Below, piece by piece: positions 10,666-22,672 of a DNA stretch of 64,000 nucleotides (position 1 is the stretch's first letter; each line of letters starts with the position of its first letter). This DNA comes from Marinomonas rhizomae (lineage in GTDB: Bacteria > Pseudomonadota > Gammaproteobacteria > Pseudomonadales > Marinomonadaceae). The notes beneath the pieces were generated by a model. The model saw nothing but the letters and a program-made list of their open reading frames with translations. It had not been told where the DNA came from and ran no database searches. The position numbers and the translations under genes are program-made. Location of the stretch: assembly GCF_003315485.1 (NCBI RefSeq), contig NZ_QNSE01000009.1, positions 124,001-188,000 on the forward strand. The letters run 5' to 3'.

Positions 10666-11595
10666 TTATACGGGGCTATTTTGTATTGTTTTTATTTTAG
10701 AGTTAAACCTCAAGGCTTCATTTATAATGAAATCAGAAAAAAGTTTTACATGACTAGGCTGTGCTCTATTTTTTAGACTGACTAAATAAATGTCTCGCTC
10801 TAAATCGATACCTTCAAAAGGTATAATGGCAATGTTTTTATGCTTAAATTGAAATAATGTCAAACCGCTTGTAATACCAATGCCATAGTTCGCAGAAATA
10901 AGTCCCATCATAGTAGTGAGTTGTTGGACTTCTAAAGCGTATTTAATTGGTTCTCCTTGTCTTTCAAATAGTTTATCTGTGTATTGGCGGATGCTAGTGC
11001 GTTGGCTGAAGCCAATAAACGAATATTTATAAAGTTCATTGAGCGTCACTTTCTTTTTTTGCCCTAGGGGATGATTAACGTGGCATAGAAGATAAAACTT
11101 ATCTGAGAACAGATAGTGGGAATCAAAGATATTTGTCGCGGGCTGGCTGGCGGTGAGTGCTAAATCAGCTTGCCCATTTACAACAGATTGAAGGCACTGA
11201 TTCCATTGAGTGTCATTTAATTTTATTTCTGTTTGAGGGTGGGTGATACTGTATTGCGTTAGTATTTCTGGTAGCCATTCCACGGCAAGTGAGGGCAAAA
11301 CACTCAATGTAAGTGTGCCTTCTTTTCCCAATGAACGTGCCGTAATTTCATCTATTGCTTCATCGTAATCTAGGATCAGGCGTCGTGCAATATCTATAAA
11401 ATGAATACCATTAGCATTCAGTTCTACCTTGCGTGTATCTCTGTCAAATAGACGATAACCAATTTCATCCTCAAGGCTAGCAATAATAGTGCTGAAAGCG
11501 GGCTGAGAAAGGTTAAATCGCTTAGCGGCTTGGGTAAAGCTGTCATGCTCACTCAGTATTAAAAACGCACGCAACTGCTTTATTGATAAGTTCAT
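10666..11595 (-). CDS. LysR-family regulator of the CitMHS/AtuA unit
   Basis: A regulator of 309 residues, with its DNA-binding winged helix at about 3-60 (FTQAAKRFNLSQPAFSTII) and a PBP2-type effector domain at about 90-300. It is divergent from the citrate-type transporter operon across 285 AT-rich bases, the classical layout in which a LysR protein activates the facing operon in response to its substrate. The effector is therefore probably the transported carboxylate or a metabolite of it; this is inference from position. Confidence 0.87.
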   Translation of the reverse strand: MNLSIKQLRAFLILSEHDSFTQAAKRFNLSQPAFSTIIASLEDEIGYRLFDRDTRKVELNANGIHFIDIARRLILDYDEAIDEITARSLGKEGTLTLSVLPSLAVEWLPEILTQYSITHPQTEIKLNDTQWNQCLQSVVNGQADLALTASQPATNIFDSHYLFSDKFYLLCHVNHPLGQKKKVTLNELYKYSFIGFSQRTSIRQYTDKLFERQGEPIKYALEVQQLTTMMGLISANYGIGITSGLTLFQFKHKNIAIIPFEGIDLERDIYLVSLKNRAQPSHVKLFSDFIINEALRFNSKIKTIQNSPV

Positions 11596-11880
11596 TCTTC
11601 TTCTTTTTTTATTTATTAAAATGATATTGTTCGATGATACTAACCAGCTAGCCTTTAATCGTCAAATCAACATTTTCTAAATAATAGATAGTTTGTTTTA
11701 TTGTCTTTCTTTGATTCTTGAAAGGTTTTTGTGAATTTATTTGAGTTTTAATTAAGTTTATTCGTTTTTTTGATTGGTGTTTATTAATTATTTAGTGATA
11801 AAAATAGGTCAGGTTTTTGTCCTCTTTCACTATTGAGAGTAGGTGCATAGCTTCTAAATATAATAATAAGGAGTTGATTA
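11596..11880. promoter_or_regulatory. divergent regulatory region, LysR / CitMHS operon
   Basis: A 285-base region, strongly AT-rich, with no open frame of note. It must hold the promoters of both flanking transcription units. A TATAAT at 11859-11864 is too near the AGGAG ribosome site (about 11869-11873) to be the -10 of the transporter gene. I could not single out a convincing T-N11-A operator. Confidence 0.5.
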
Positions 11881-13194
11881 ATGTTGGCATTCTGGGGGTT
11901 CTGCACCATAGCGGTGTTGTTGACGCTTATCATGACTAAGCGCATGTCGGTCGTAGTGGCCTTAGTTTTGGTTCCGATTGTGTTTGCTTTGTTAGCAGGT
12001 TTAAGTTCCGAATTGGGCGGTTATATTTTGACCGGACTGAAAAGTGTGGCCCCGACTGGAATTATGCTGACATTTGCTATTTTGTATTTTTCTGTAATGA
12101 ATGATGCCGGAATGTTTGATCCTATGATTAAAGGGATCATTAAATTTGGAGGGCAAGATCCGACCAAAATTGCCGTTGGTACGGCACTCATTGCCATGAT
12201 AGCGCATTTAGATGGTTCTGGAGCATCCACTTTTTTAGTTTGTATACCTGCCATGATACCTATTTATGATCGATTAGGAATGGATCGCAAGGTGCTTGCC
12301 TGTATTGCTGCATTAGGTGCCGGTACGATGAATATATTACCTTGGGGTGGTCCGACGCTGCGTGCTTCCTCTTCATTAGGTGTGGATATTTCTGAGTTAT
12401 TTAACCCAATTATCCCTGCTTTTGGGGCTGGGGTATTAACGGTTCTTGTTGTGGCCTTTTGGTTGGGAAAGAAAGAGAAAGTCCGTTTATCGAGTGTGGG
12501 GCCTTTAGGGGGAAGTTCCTCTTCGTTTGTTGGTATTGATGATAATGAAGATGAAGAAAAAGCGAGTCTAAAACGGCCTAAGTTATTTTTCTTTAATTTA
12601 TTGCTTACCGTTGGCGCATTGACGGCATTAGTTACTAAAACAGTGCCTCTGCCAGCTGTATTTGTGATTGCTTTACCTATTGCCTTGTTGGTGAACTATC
12701 CAAATGTAAAATTACAGCAAGCTCGCATTAATGCTCACGGTCATGCGGCTATTTTGATGATTTCAATTATCTTTGCTGCTGGTGTGTTCACTGGGGTTCT
12801 TAAAGGCTCCGGGATGATTAAGGCGTTGGCAACATCTTTAGTAAGTGTGGTTCCTGAAAGTTTTGGTGCGCATTTACCACTTTTGACTGCAATTACTTCT
12901 ATGCCCGCAAGTTTGATATTTGACCCTGACTCATATTATTTCGGTGTGTTGCCAGTGTTATCACATGCCGCAGAAGCGTTAGGGGCTAGCGGAATTGAGG
13001 TTGTTCGTGGCGCATTACTTGGTCAAATGACGACTGGCTTTCCTGTTAGCCCTCTTACAGCATCGACTTTTTTGCTAGTTGGGCTAGCGGGTGTTGATCT
13101 AGCAGATCACCAAAAGAAAACGATTCCCTTGGCATTTTTAGTAACTTTGGTAATGACTTTAGTTGCTGTGATTACGGGTGCATTGAGCATTTAA
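11881..13194 (+). CDS. CitMHS-family carboxylate transporter
   Basis: An integral membrane protein of 437 residues with about 11-12 hydrophobic segments and a charged cytoplasmic loop in the middle (about 205-237, with a DDNEDEE run). The N-terminus MLAFWGFCTIAVLL and the stretches HLDGSGASTF and LPWGGPTLRA are typical of CitMHS proteins, which import citrate or related acids as metal complexes with protons. An AGGAG site is 8 bases before the ATG. It leads an operon with the two AtuA-type genes, so the imported acid is probably the substrate of their product; citrate itself is not proven. Confidence 0.88.
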   Translation: MLAFWGFCTIAVLLTLIMTKRMSVVVALVLVPIVFALLAGLSSELGGYILTGLKSVAPTGIMLTFAILYFSVMNDAGMFDPMIKGIIKFGGQDPTKIAVGTALIAMIAHLDGSGASTFLVCIPAMIPIYDRLGMDRKVLACIAALGAGTMNILPWGGPTLRASSSLGVDISELFNPIIPAFGAGVLTVLVVAFWLGKKEKVRLSSVGPLGGSSSSFVGIDDNEDEEKASLKRPKLFFFNLLLTVGALTALVTKTVPLPAVFVIALPIALLVNYPNVKLQQARINAHGHAAILMISIIFAAGVFTGVLKGSGMIKALATSLVSVVPESFGAHLPLLTAITSMPASLIFDPDSYYFGVLPVLSHAAEALGASGIEVVRGALLGQMTTGFPVSPLTASTFLLVGLAGVDLADHQKKTIPLAFLVTLVMTLVAVITGALSI

Positions 13195-13287
13195 ACAAGA
13201 GCAGAGTGAGCTCATTTGTAGGGCCCTCTTTCGTTGTAGTGTACTTACTCGGGTGCTTTTCTAATAGTTTATTGGATCTAATGAAGA

Positions 13288-14625
13288 ATGAATAAAATCA
13301 GAATTGGTTCTGGCGCAGGATATGCTGGTGATCGAATTGAGCCCGCCGTTGAGTTGGCACAAAAAGGTCAATTGGATTATTTGGTATTTGAATGCCTTGC
13401 AGAACGAACCATTGCTATCGGTCAGAAGCAAAAGAAACAAGACGCGAATAAAGGCTATAACGAGTTACTAGAAGCACGTATGCGGGCTGTGTTGCCGAGC
13501 TGTTATGAAAACTGTGTGCGCATTGTAACTAATATGGGAGCAGCCAACCCCATTGCGGCTGGTCATTTGGTTATGCGTGTTGCGAAAGAATTGGGCTTAG
13601 CATCATTTAAAGTTGCAGTGGTCTTAGGTGATGATGTCTTGCCTGAATTGCACCGATTGGATCTAAAGTTGAATGAAGCTGGTGTGGCGGTATCACAAAG
13701 TGGTAAAGATATTATATCGGCTAACGCGTATATGGGAATTGAAGGTCTGCTTGAGGCTTTAGAAAGTGGTGCCAATATGGTAATTGCTGGTCGAGTCGCG
13801 GATCCTTCTTTGTTTCTTGCACCTATGGTTCATGAGTTTGGTTGGCCCCAAGATGATTGGGAGAAATTAGGTAAAGGAACTTGTATTGGTCATTTACTTG
13901 AATGTGCTGGGCAGATTACAGGTGGATATTTTGCAGACCCTGGAGTGAAGGATGTGATTGGGTTAGCTAAGCTTGGCTTCCCTCTTGCTGAGGTGGATGA
14001 ATCTGGTGATGCGGTCATTACCAAGGTGGAAGGTTCTGGAGGCGTTGTTTGTGAAGCAACATGCAAAGAACAATTGCTTTATGAAATTCATCGTCCAGAT
14101 CAATATTTCACGCCTGATGTGGTGGCAGATTTCTCCAACGTTTCTTTCATACAGCAAGGTGATAATCGTGTTGCCGTAAAAGGGGCGAATGGCTCAGTAA
14201 GAACACAGACCTTAAAAATATCGGTTGGTTATAATGATGGCTTTATTGGTGAAGGGGAGATTTCTTTCGCTGGGCCAAATGCCGTTGCTCGTGGTCAATT
14301 GGCTCTGGATATCGTAAAAGAGCGTTTTTCTGTGTGTCGGTTTGAGCCTATTGAAGCCAGATATGATTTGGTCGGTGTAAATGCATTACATGGTGTCACT
14401 AGATCAACGCACGGCGAACCCTACGAAGTTCGCGCTCGTGTTGCTGTTCGCTGTTCAACGTTTGAGGATGCGGTCTTTGTGGGTAATGAGGTTGAAACCT
14501 TATACACCAATGGACCAGCTGGAGGTGGAGGTGTTGCTAAGTCCGCCAAAGCCGTGCTGGCTATGGACTCTTGCTTGATCCCGCGCGATCAAGTACATGC
14601 AACTATTACAATTTTGGAGGATTAA
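13288..14625 (+). CDS. AtuA-family (DUF1446) protein, large part
   Basis: A protein of 445 residues corresponding to the DUF1446 domain of AtuA, a protein of acyclic terpene catabolism in Pseudomonas. Conserved segments are the N-terminal RIGSGAGYAGDR, a MGAANP loop, DDVL and a MVIAGRVADPSLFL stretch; the C-terminus has a glycine-rich GPAGGGG run. AtuA itself is longer (about 590 residues) and has an extra C-terminal domain, here encoded by the next gene. None of the other atu genes (geranyl-CoA carboxylase, dehydrogenases) is present, so a terpene role is unlikely. The enzyme reaction is unknown. Confidence 0.85.
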   Translation: MNKIRIGSGAGYAGDRIEPAVELAQKGQLDYLVFECLAERTIAIGQKQKKQDANKGYNELLEARMRAVLPSCYENCVRIVTNMGAANPIAAGHLVMRVAKELGLASFKVAVVLGDDVLPELHRLDLKLNEAGVAVSQSGKDIISANAYMGIEGLLEALESGANMVIAGRVADPSLFLAPMVHEFGWPQDDWEKLGKGTCIGHLLECAGQITGGYFADPGVKDVIGLAKLGFPLAEVDESGDAVITKVEGSGGVVCEATCKEQLLYEIHRPDQYFTPDVVADFSNVSFIQQGDNRVAVKGANGSVRTQTLKISVGYNDGFIGEGEISFAGPNAVARGQLALDIVKERFSVCRFEPIEARYDLVGVNALHGVTRSTHGEPYEVRARVAVRCSTFEDAVFVGNEVETLYTNGPAGGGGVAKSAKAVLAMDSCLIPRDQVHATITILED

Positions 14626-14628
14626 GCA

Positions 14629-14928
14629 ATGAAACTACGCGACATCGCTCATTCTCGTACAGGGGACAAAGGGGATATTTCGAACATCTCTCTTATTGTT
14701 TATGATATTCATGATTATGGGCAGATTAAAGACGCTGTGACGGCAGAGAAAGTACAAAATTGGTTTAGTGATATTGTCTCTGGTGAAGTTGTGCGCTACG
14801 AACTACCGGCTATCGGTGCATTAAATTTTGTTATGTATGAAGCGTTAGGTGGTGGTGTTACTCGTTCTTTGGCTCTCGATATACATGGTAAGAGCCTGAG
14901 CTCGGCTTTGCTAGATTTTGTGATTTAG
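14629..14928 (+). CDS. AtuA-related small protein (C-terminal AtuA domain)
   Basis: A protein of 99 residues equal to the domain found at the C-terminus of full-length AtuA. The signature HSRTGDKGDISNIS is at about residues 8-21. The gene begins 3 bases after the stop of the DUF1446 gene, with GGAGG inside the end of that gene as its ribosome site, so translation is probably coupled and the two products most likely act as one enzyme. It ends the operon: a strong terminator follows 10 bases later. Confidence 0.85.
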   Translation: MKLRDIAHSRTGDKGDISNISLIVYDIHDYGQIKDAVTAEKVQNWFSDIVSGEVVRYELPAIGALNFVMYEALGGGVTRSLALDIHGKSLSSALLDFVI

Positions 14929-14938
14929 TTGTTTTTTT

Positions 14939-14967
14939 AACTGCCATCAAATTTGATGGCAGTTTTT
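14939..14967 (+). terminator. intrinsic terminator of the CitMHS/AtuA operon
   Basis: A perfect 26-base palindrome with arms AACTGCCATCAAA and TTTGATGGCAGTT, followed by T's. The central AATT would form the loop. Confidence 0.92.
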
Positions 14968-19693: not shown

Positions 19694-20803
19694 TTAGGAG
19701 AGAACCGCAACGGACTTAATTTGAGCTATGATGGTTTGGCCTTTTTCTAGTCTTAGGTTGTGAGCTGATAATGTGGTTATTTTAGCTAAAATTGTTGTAG
19801 TTCCTGCTAATAGACGAACCATAATCATGCTTGGGTCCTTAGGGTCCCTTTCTAAATCGTCTATTAATACAGATAAGCGGTTTAGGATACTTGAGTTATC
19901 TTGTTTACTTAGTGCTAAGCTGACATCTTTTGATTGGATTCTTAAACGAATCAAATCGCCTAGCTTTTCATCGCCTTGTTTGAATGCGATGGTTTGGTTG
20001 TCAAAACTGATCCATGAAAGTCCCCATTTAGGTTCTTGTCGTGTGACAGCACCTGAAACCACTACGCTGGCATCTTGGTAGCGAGAGAACGAAGTGCCAA
20101 GCTTGCCAAGCAAGCTTTGTGTTTTTCCTTCTTCGATTGCTCTACCCTTATCTAAGACAACCATATAATCGGCAAGTCGTATGACTTCGTCTAAGGAATG
20201 GCTTACATAGATGATGGGGATGCTAGTACGGCGGCAGAGTTGTTCTAAATAGGGAAGGATTTCTTGTTTTAATGCATCGTCTAGTGCAGAGAGAGGTTCA
20301 TCCATTAGAAGTAGTTTCGGCTGAATTAAAAGCGCTCTTGCCATGGCCACTCGTTGGCGCTCACCACCGGATAGTTGAGCTGGATATTGAGATAAGATGG
20401 CTTCGATATTCATTAAACGAATCACATCTTTATAAGAAATGATCGGCTGGGCTGAGTTGGCTCGTTTGATTGCGAACTGTAAATTTTCTTTAGCGCTAAG
20501 GTGTGGAAACAGGTTTGCGTCTTGGAACACATAACCAATTGGGCGCTTGTGAGCTGGAGAGTAAATGGATTTGGTGCCAGATTGCCAGATCTCTCCATTT
20601 AAAGTAATGCTGCTTTGTTTGTTTGGTTCAAGACCTGCAATACATCTAAGAAGTGTGGTTTTTCCAGAACCTGATGGGCCAAATAAGGCGCTCACACCAC
20701 TGTTGGGTAACTTTAAATCGACATCAAGAGAGAAGGTTGAGGTCTTGAGGTGCTGATAGGTAACTTGAACACATAGGGGGTTGTGGTCTTGCTTGCTGCT
20801 CAT
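19694..20803 (-). CDS. modC: molybdate ABC transporter, ATP-binding protein
   Basis: The ATPase of the ModABC molybdate/tungstate importer, 369 residues. The N-terminal ABC domain (about 10-240) has Walker A GPSGSGKT, signature LSGGERQR and Walker B LLLMDEPLSALD; the C-terminal region (about 300-365) is a TOBE/Mop domain that binds molybdate. Its ATG overlaps the modB stop by 4 bases (ATGA), so the two are translationally coupled. It is the last gene of the four-gene unit. Confidence 0.93.
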   Translation of the reverse strand: MSSKQDHNPLCVQVTYQHLKTSTFSLDVDLKLPNSGVSALFGPSGSGKTTLLRCIAGLEPNKQSSITLNGEIWQSGTKSIYSPAHKRPIGYVFQDANLFPHLSAKENLQFAIKRANSAQPIISYKDVIRLMNIEAILSQYPAQLSGGERQRVAMARALLIQPKLLLMDEPLSALDDALKQEILPYLEQLCRRTSIPIIYVSHSLDEVIRLADYMVVLDKGRAIEEGKTQSLLGKLGTSFSRYQDASVVVSGAVTRQEPKWGLSWISFDNQTIAFKQGDEKLGDLIRLRIQSKDVSLALSKQDNSSILNRLSVLIDDLERDPKDPSMIMVRLLAGTTTILAKITTLSAHNLRLEKGQTIIAQIKSVAVLS

Positions 20804-21498
20804 AACAAACCGCCTGTCAGGCCTTTACTTTTTTGGCGTTTTTGAGTGCTGTACAAAAACGCCAAGACCACAAAGGCAAATACAATCATTAGCAAGGACA
20901 GTGTATGAGCTTGTCCGTATTCTAGAGCTTCGACATGATCGTATATTTGTATGGAAATTACTCTGGTTTCATTAGAAATATTGCCACCTATCATTAAAAC
21001 AACACCAAACTCACCAATGGTATGAGCAAACCCTAAAACAGCGGCGCTTATATAGCCAGGTTTTGCTAGCGGAACGGCGACATGGATAAAGCTATCCCAT
21101 GGGGAGGCTCTAAGAGTCGAAGCGGCTTCTAAGGGGCGATCTCCCATTGCGATAAAGGCATTTTGAATGGGTTGAACGACAAATGGTAAGGAGTAAAGCA
21201 TGGACGCCACCACCAGGCCAGAGAAGCTAAAAGGTAGGGGAGAGACGCCTATTTTGGCCAATAATTGCCCCATTGCTCCCTGTGGGCCTAAAAACAGTAA
21301 TAAGTAAAAACCCAATACGGTGGGAGGAAGAACGAGAGGCATAGCAACGATAGCGTTAATAGGGCCCTTTAACCAAGATTGCGTTCTGGCTAGCCACCAA
21401 GCGATGGGCGTACTGATTAAAATTAATAAAACCGTGACGATGCTTGCCAGTTTTAAGGTTAGCCAAATAGCGGCAATATCATCGGGGCTTAATGTCAT
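20800..21498 (-). CDS. modB: molybdate ABC transporter, permease
   Basis: The inner-membrane permease of the molybdate importer, 232 residues with five to six helices. MPLVLPPTVLGFYLL near residue 50 and the EAA loop EAASTLRASPWDSFIHVAVPL (positions about 124-144) that docks on ModC are typical. It follows modA by 12 bases and overlaps modC by 4, in the standard A-B-C order. Confidence 0.93.
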   Translation of the reverse strand: MTLSPDDIAAIWLTLKLASIVTVLLILISTPIAWWLARTQSWLKGPINAIVAMPLVLPPTVLGFYLLLFLGPQGAMGQLLAKIGVSPLPFSFSGLVVASMLYSLPFVVQPIQNAFIAMGDRPLEAASTLRASPWDSFIHVAVPLAKPGYISAAVLGFAHTIGEFGVVLMIGGNISNETRVISIQIYDHVEALEYGQAHTLSLLMIVFAFVVLAFLYSTQKRQKSKGLTGGLL

Positions 21499-21510
21499 AA
21501 TAGCGCTTGC

Positions 21511-22314
21511 CTAATTCACTTCTGAAGCATAGCCAAATAAGGCTATTTTCCGTTGGATATCAGGACGCATTAAGAACTTCATAAATGTTTCAGCTAACTC
21601 GATGTTTTTTGACTTTGATAAAATGACCCCTGCTTGGTTAATGTTATTATAGAGGTTGTTAGGTATACGTATTGAGTGGCCTTTTTCTTGTCCTGCTAAT
21701 ATTTGTGAATAGGCTGTAAAGCCGATATCTGCATTTTGTGAATATACAAATTGATAGGCTTGCCCTATATTTTCCCCTTGGACTATCTTGTTTTTAACCT
21801 GATCCAAAACAGATAAGTTACGCATGATTTCTTCTGCCGCTTTACCGTAAGGTGCCAGTCTTGGGTTGGCTATTGCAATACGCTTTGCCTTAAGAAGTGC
21901 ACTCTTTAGTGTTGTGGCATTAATGGTATTTACTGACCAGAGAGCGAGTTGACCTCTGGCATAAATTACTAAGCTGTCAGGTTGAGCAAGTTGGGTTTTG
22001 ATAAGCGCTTCTGGTTTAGCTGTGTCGGCAGACAAAAAAATGTCAAAAGGGGCATTGTGTCGAATTTGTGCGAATAGTTTTCCTGATGAGCCAAACGACA
22101 GCTGGAGTATATGTCCTGTTTCTTGTTCAAATTCATTGGCGAGTTGTTTTATGGGAGCAATGAAATTAGAGGCGACAGCTAAGTGAAGTTCATTAGCGGC
22201 AATAGCTTTAATTGGCGTAAGAAGAGAACATAAAAGAAAAAGCGGGGAGAGTAAGGCGCTAAGCCTATAGTAAAAGGGTCGCGTCTTAGCGGCTAAAAAA
22301 ATCTCTATCGTCAT
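21511..22314 (-). CDS. modA: molybdate-binding periplasmic protein
   Basis: The solute-binding protein of the importer, 267 residues. A signal peptide (hydrophobic stretch at about 20-36, ending near KAIAA) precedes the mature start NELHLAVASNF. SFGSSGKLFAQI and FDIFLSADTAKPEAL carry the residues that hold the oxyanion. The start is not certain: the ATG at 22314 has no clear ribosome site, and an in-frame TTG at 22350 would overlap the end of the Rieske gene. Either choice leaves the mature protein unchanged. Confidence 0.9.
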   Translation of the reverse strand: MTIEIFLAAKTRPFYYRLSALLSPLFLLCSLLTPIKAIAANELHLAVASNFIAPIKQLANEFEQETGHILQLSFGSSGKLFAQIRHNAPFDIFLSADTAKPEALIKTQLAQPDSLVIYARGQLALWSVNTINATTLKSALLKAKRIAIANPRLAPYGKAAEEIMRNLSVLDQVKNKIVQGENIGQAYQFVYSQNADIGFTAYSQILAGQEKGHSIRIPNNLYNNINQAGVILSKSKNIELAETFMKFLMRPDIQRKIALFGYASEVN

Positions 22315-22342
22315 TGGTACATTCTTAAAGTCATATGACTTG

Positions 22343-22672
22343 TTAAGCAAATAATAAGTAGCAGTTACCTTGCTCTATTCCTACCGTGGCTTTTTTAAGC
22401 TGGCTACCTTGGCATGGGCCAGTAATACAGGTTCCATCCAAAGGCGAAAACAAAGCCCCATGATGGTGGCATTTTAGGTAATCGCCTTCTTCGTCCAATG
22501 CAAGATCTGTGGGCCAATTAAGTGGCTTATTTTGATGGGGGCAAAGGTTCTCATAAGCAAGAATTTGACCTTGTTGCTTAGTCACTAAGAAATTGTAGTC
22601 TTCTACTTTTATATTTAGCGCTTTACCTTCGGGAAGGTTTTGAGCATTAGGAATAAGGTACTTATTAAACAC
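22343..22672 (-). CDS. Rieske-type [2Fe-2S] ferredoxin
   Basis: A small soluble protein of 109 residues with a full Rieske cluster site: C-P-H in NLCPHQNKP and C-H-H-H-G in LKCHHHGALF, spaced as in ferredoxin subunits of oxygenases and NirD-like proteins. It starts with GTG and has no signal peptide, so it should be a cytosolic electron carrier or a regulatory subunit. It is the first gene of a unit with modABC and ends about 30 bases before the modA start. No partner oxygenase or reductase is adjacent, so its role with molybdate import is unclear. Confidence 0.83.
   Translation of the reverse strand: MFNKYLIPNAQNLPEGKALNIKVEDYNFLVTKQQGQILAYENLCPHQNKPLNWPTDLALDEEGDYLKCHHHGALFSPLDGTCITGPCQGSQLKKATVGIEQGNCYLLFA

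Follow-up and report, generated by a model that had tools for sequence, protein, structure and literature searches.

A LysR-CitMHS-split AtuA operon in Marinomonas rhizomae encodes a candidate two-subunit lyase related to citramalate lyase

The classic citrate and citramalate lyases (CitDEF) include an acyl-carrier subunit and are different proteins from those considered here, although the overall reaction type would be the same if the proposal made below is right. In one report, a clostridial citramalate lyase converts citramalate to pyruvate and acetate, and a DUF1446 gene beside the methylaspartate ammonia-lyase gene of E. coli is given as of unknown function, the fate of citramalate being unclear at that time (PMC4682846). 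A second report lists AtuA as an acetate-releasing lyase for 3-hydroxy-3-isohexenylglutaryl-coenzyme A (CoA) and describes AtuA of T. linaloolentis as one chain of 615 amino acids encoded within the atu cluster (PMC4847356). Two PDB entries found to be related by sequence, 9ERQ and 9EVF, contain the subunits of a "citramalate lyase", namely A (CmlA, of the AtuA family) and B (CmlB, DUF4387); the title of 9EVF is "Citramalate lyase - ADP - pyruvate complex". The present analysis concerns an operon of Marinomonas rhizomae in which a CitMHS-type transporter gene precedes a split AtuA pair. The whole stretch analysed, called the window, comprises 64,000 nucleotides of contig NZ_QNSE01000009.1 (124,001-188,000, forward strand), and all coordinates below are window-based.

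The operon consists of the transporter gene, a gene for a large DUF1446 chain and a gene for a small AtuA_ferredoxin chain, with a divergent LysR gene upstream (Table 1). This composition had been described in an earlier note on the same DNA, including the 3 bases that separate the two enzyme genes, and the open reading frames (ORFs), their coordinates and the domain matches agree with it. The operon is real, occurs widely, in many proteobacteria, and is apparently uncharacterised; its enzyme belongs to a known superfamily. Among the literature search results, no paper assigned a function to the split pair, and neither this operon nor the 9EVF structure was indicated by any of them. The earlier note had also called the reaction not yet assigned; this still applies to the substrate, although a class of reaction can be put forward. 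We consider it probable that the pair is a two-subunit C-C lyase resembling CmlAB, which would split an imported hydroxy-polycarboxylate, whatever the acid, into acetate and an oxo acid.

Direct phmmer searches against PDB gave a best match of only E 0.039 (9ERQ_A) for the large chain and none for the small chain, so that the link to citramalate lyase required a CmlA-like relative, profiles and folds. By sequence, ECs_0759 and ECs_0760 of E. coli O157:H7 Sakai are close relatives of the solved subunits B and A, respectively, and they adjoin a methylaspartate ammonia-lyase gene. These two genes (L186:26934-28618) are annotated as acyl-CoA synthetase and 3-methylaspartate ammonia-lyase. In a single BLASTP comparison, the large chains of the window and E. 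coli were 26% identical over 234 columns (E 5e-7), and the small chains gave nothing notable. Profile comparison to CmlA and CmlB reached 99.2% for the large chain and 84% for the small chain, with shuffled controls nowhere near. The predicted folds had as their sole significant PDB matches chain A of 9EVF for the large chain and chain B of 9EVF for the small one. Other fold matches were set aside as common-fold background; for the large chain these covered mostly the ferredoxin-like part at residues 317-422 (M20-type enzymes, designed proteins) and for the small chain they were pieces of RNA polymerase. Since the two chains match both chains of 9EVF and show profile homology in both cases, the earlier proposal of a two-subunit enzyme is very probably correct.

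The likeness to CmlA-CmlB extends to gene arrangement, as in both systems adjacent genes encode a PF07287 chain and a chain of about 100 amino acids, and the folds match chain by chain; a joint alignment with CmlA contains 19 positions fixed across both families. The window pair is nevertheless not CmlAB, judging by its small-subunit family, its fixed residues and its context. Pfam assigns only PF23544 to the window small chain and not PF14330 (DUF4387), the family of CmlB, the two being related by profile and fold. PF14330 gave no match in this genome in either of two scans. One of these scans detected the family nowhere, a weakness offset in part by the other, which covered a phylum sample of 299 genomes that were not picked by similarity and detected the profile in 18; all 18 places, as well as locus L019, adjoin a CmlA-like gene. 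The methylaspartate pathway setting of CmlAB, with its ammonia-lyase, was likewise not seen here, the single MAAL_C match in the genome lying outside the window and below the cut-off (20.8 of 27 bits). Nor is the pair a classic AtuA. It has PF07287 and PF23544 in the same order, but AtuA is a fused chain of the atu cluster, whereas the window has two genes with an importer, and no atu partner gene was seen among the 18 window proteins scanned. Most likely, the pair works like CmlAB and AtuA. Given that the activity listed for AtuA is that of a lyase releasing acetate and that citramalate lyase yields pyruvate and acetate, the window pair may by analogy cleave a tertiary hydroxy acid in the same way.

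In the proposed scheme, the LysR protein would control a catabolic operon with a single enzyme, and CitMHS would import a hydroxylated di- or tricarboxylate in symport with protons. The two chains, AtuA (large) and AtuA_ferredoxin (small), would assemble into a single heteromer with the CmlAB fold, and this enzyme may cut the acid next to a tertiary hydroxyl in retro-aldol fashion to give acetate and an oxo acid. The latter would feed central metabolism, so that no further pathway enzyme would be needed. The acid is most likely free, since the operon contains an importer and a regulator and no other enzyme. It is probably of external origin, as the genome has no CitF match (the E. coli control genome gives one) and no methylaspartate ammonia-lyase over the cut-off. 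That an acid is imported, as the earlier note held, is also made probable by the CitMHS or other carboxylate-type importer genes beside many relatives. As first guesses, the substrate could be an acid like citramalate or 3-hydroxy-3-methylglutarate; citrate, a less likely guess, is included because the window CitMHS falls outside the main AtuA-linked clade.

Within the genus, an AtuA gene was found in 4 of 47 genomes, the window's included, and all four have the CitMHS, AtuA and small-chain genes in this order, so that the set is not a chance juxtaposition. The three other carriers also have the LysR gene in the same place, 77-90% identical. Two of them share with the window the phytase-like and DUF2057 neighbours; the 14.3 kb retrieved for the third showed neither. 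In the genome collection, at least 564 matching stretches were confirmed as encoding a relative. The best 80 of these, chosen by similarity, were taken as near relatives, with ORFs around them called greedily and several loci clipped by contig ends (L091 has 300 bases upstream); they include Pectobacterium (68%), Herbaspirillum, Paraburkholderia, Pseudomonas, Azospirillum and Bradyrhizobium. Of these 80, 78 carry the small gene next to the large one, at a distance of no more than 1.5 kb. As separate observations, the small-subunit gene of L105 (9058-9348) lies 1.7 kb from a large-subunit gene, and L076 has a large-subunit gene with no small one detected. A LysR-family match was present within 3.5 kb in 59 of the near relatives and CitMHS within 1.5 kb in 53. 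The idea of a dedicated pathway in the earlier note leaned on the pair being linked to CitMHS across genomes. This holds for the window's clade but not for the wider AtuA family, in which CitMHS lay in the 1.5-kb flanks at 4 of 21 loci in one set and 2 of 25 in another. Eight relatives on annotated plasmids were listed with CitMHS (3), TRAP-TAXI (2), TctC (1), an ABC set (1) and TctABC together with an ABC set (1), and a LysR gene was listed at 7 of these 8 loci. Four Bradyrhizobium loci (L065, L080, L081 and L094), with relatives of the pair at 58-60%, adjoin an amidase gene recognised by eye, and some also a thiolase or short-chain dehydrogenase/reductase (SDR) gene; with no importer seen, these neighbourhoods hint at a different pathway use.

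The phylum sample contained PF23544 at 43 places in 39 genomes, of which 20 were in long frames (590 amino acids or more, fused) and 23 were not. Hence the separation of the two domains, which the earlier note had regarded as an oddity, is common, and it is the rule among the near relatives. CitMHS adjoins 8 of the 23 stand-alone small-chain genes and none of the 20 fused ones (Fisher p 0.004, uncorrected for kinship). All 23 stand-alone places were inspected, 17 as fetched regions (2 with CitMHS) and 6 within CitMHS loci. The other 15 places showed TctC (4), TRAP-TAXI (2), an oligopeptide-type ABC set (1) and parts of branched-chain-type ABC systems (3, one weak and two on the opposite strand); at one of the 15, L219, the large gene was undetected in 10 kb around the small gene. 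On a tree of AtuA chains with 104 rows, an importer was seen for 88 rows, and across these its label switches at least 10 times, the labels being crude (L129 is labelled HAAT and annotated as another ABC type).

Several observations weigh against a CmlAB-like lyase. Large-chain identity to CmlA is only 18-24%, and seven positions are fixed but different between the two families, for example Q262/H and H202/K, so that the substrate and even the reaction may differ. In an alignment with 18 CmlA rows, the CmlA-fixed V154, K203, H249 and G264 (numbering of ECs_0760) correspond to N146, H202, Q262 and D277 of the window chain. In addition, the lyase role of AtuA is itself partly tentative, no reference importer was seen at 5 of the 23 stand-alone places or in 16 of the 104 rows of the AtuA tree, and some relatives at 57-60% adjoin thiolase, amidase or CoA-transferase genes, recognised by eye, with no importer seen. 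The differing fixed positions, together with the ADP in the title of 9EVF, would suit an enzyme of the same fold with another reaction, such as a hydratase, isomerase, nucleotide-dependent ligase or racemase acting on a carboxylate. This is the strongest of the alternatives and still unlikely, since both recorded reactions of the family are those of acetate-releasing lyases and no shared further enzyme that would use a mere isomer was seen near the relatives.

If the pair is a lyase, its substrate might be citrate, which would be cleaved to acetate and oxaloacetate without an acyl-carrier protein; this sub-case appears slightly less likely still. The window transporter passes the cut-off of TIGR00784, a family named citrate:proton symporter, and is the single match in the genome, which also lacks the CitF of classic citrate lyase. 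A lyase that cleaves citrate would drain the tricarboxylic acid cycle, and this counts against it. The transporter lineages bear on the question from both sides. Among the 299 genomes, 29 CitMHS copies were over the cut-off, of which 8 are next to an AtuA pair, 3 are next to a CmlA-CmlB pair (one across a 1.1-kb gap) and 18 to neither (16 read with 1.5-kb flanks, 2 judged from coordinates). A quick CitMHS tree with some long branches was built from 86 rows (67 AtuA-linked, 3 CmlAB-linked and 16 neither; L027 and L173 being one gene entered twice). The linkage classes mostly sort apart, needing 3 changes where the minimum possible is 2, and 57 AtuA-linked rows form one starred clade. Beyond it, together with the stand-alone and CmlAB-linked copies, lie the window's four rows, four alphaproteobacterial rows and L027/L173. 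A single dedicated clade of AtuA-linked CitMHS was therefore rejected, as 2 changes are needed and the window's four rows fall outside the main group. The CitMHS copies that adjoin the paralogous CmlA-CmlB pair, in L170, L171 and L179/L149 (genomes G678, G642 and G484), make up a starred group of their own.

The starred branch that separates the 57-row clade leaves the window CitMHS with the stand-alone copies, which makes citrate somewhat likelier than it would otherwise be. By identity, however, this transporter is nearer to AtuA-linked copies (45-51%) than to stand-alone ones (37-45%). At least three genomes (G641, G656 and G704) keep a stand-alone CitMHS of another clade besides the AtuA-linked one, which suggests that the linked copies there carry a different acid; for the window's own copy, a different cargo is less certain. 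On the AtuA tree, the window chain and that of Pectobacterium (L047) share a starred group, and the window CitMHS groups elsewhere. With the two groupings in disagreement, the CitMHS gene of the window lineage may have been replaced by one from another CitMHS lineage.

A CoA-thioester substrate, of the kind suggested for AtuA in terpene catabolism, with partner enzymes encoded elsewhere in the genome, is improbable. The Pfam pair is the same as in AtuA, and some split relatives adjoin genes that by eye encode enoyl-CoA hydratase, SDR, CoA-transferase or thiolase. However, no CoA enzyme occurs among the scanned window proteins or in the annotated surroundings of the three CitMHS-linked plasmid relatives, and the importers neighbouring the clade suit free acids. 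That transporter and enzyme are functionally unrelated chance neighbours is highly improbable in spite of the rarity of the set in the genus and the lack of CitMHS within 1.5 kb of most wider family members, given its presence beside 53 of the 80 near relatives and the bias towards stand-alone small chains in the phylum sample.

The features of the locus are collected in Table 1. A search with NCBIfam models at E <= 0.001 gave no match for either enzyme chain. The palindrome behind the small-subunit gene folds with -16.6 kcal/mol (z -6.1), a value equalled by none of 200 shuffles; it is a probable terminator, as the earlier note had stated, and perhaps acts in both directions. It was missing from the output of a simple terminator scan, probably because the run of T after the stem is too short. 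In the control region, the conserved block was picked by eye as a candidate LysR site, and promoter-like matches showed no excess over shuffles (7 against 7.2).

Table 1. Features of the operon in window coordinates
Feature	Position	Strand	Evidence
LysR-family regulator, divergent	10666..11595	-	PF00126 + PF03466
Intergenic control region	11596..11880	none	conserved block at about 11637-11670 in an alignment of four genus members
CitMHS-family carboxylate:proton symporter	11881..13194	+	TIGR00784, 476.2 bits (cut-off 259.7)
Large subunit, AtuA/DUF1446, CmlA-like, 445 amino acids	13288..14625	+	PF07287, 504.8 bits, residues 4-441
Small subunit, AtuA_ferredoxin, CmlB-like, 99 amino acids	14629..14928	+	PF23544, 122.7 bits, residues 1-98
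Perfect palindrome, 26 bp	14939..14964	+	T runs flank both sides

The scanned neighbours comprise the phytase-like protein, two more LysR genes, DUF2057, an EamA permease, OmpW, a carbamoyltransferase, a peroxiredoxin, a sensor pair, an HD protein and Mod-type ABC genes, and none of them has an evident tie to the operon. The ABC genes at 19694-22350 encode an ATPase with a TOBE domain, a permease and a binding protein, a set that resembles a molybdate transporter (ModABC).

Tentatively, the operon may stand for a widespread, uncharacterised class that joins an importer to a lyase. A pair related to CmlAB would cleave a free hydroxy-polycarboxylate without CoA or acyl-carrier protein, and importers of the CitMHS, TRAP-TAXI, TctC and ABC types would replace one another freely. 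The acid would then not be citramalate; an acid from plants or roots might be involved, for example 3-hydroxy-3-methylglutarate, homocitrate or hydroxycitrate, and the catabolic reaction would be one to which no enzyme is assigned. Through the link to citramalate lyase, the candidate substrates for an operon of unknown function are narrowed to a few. The same link could account for many of the "AtuA family" annotations in bacteria that live in soil or with plants, and these may be unrelated to terpenes.
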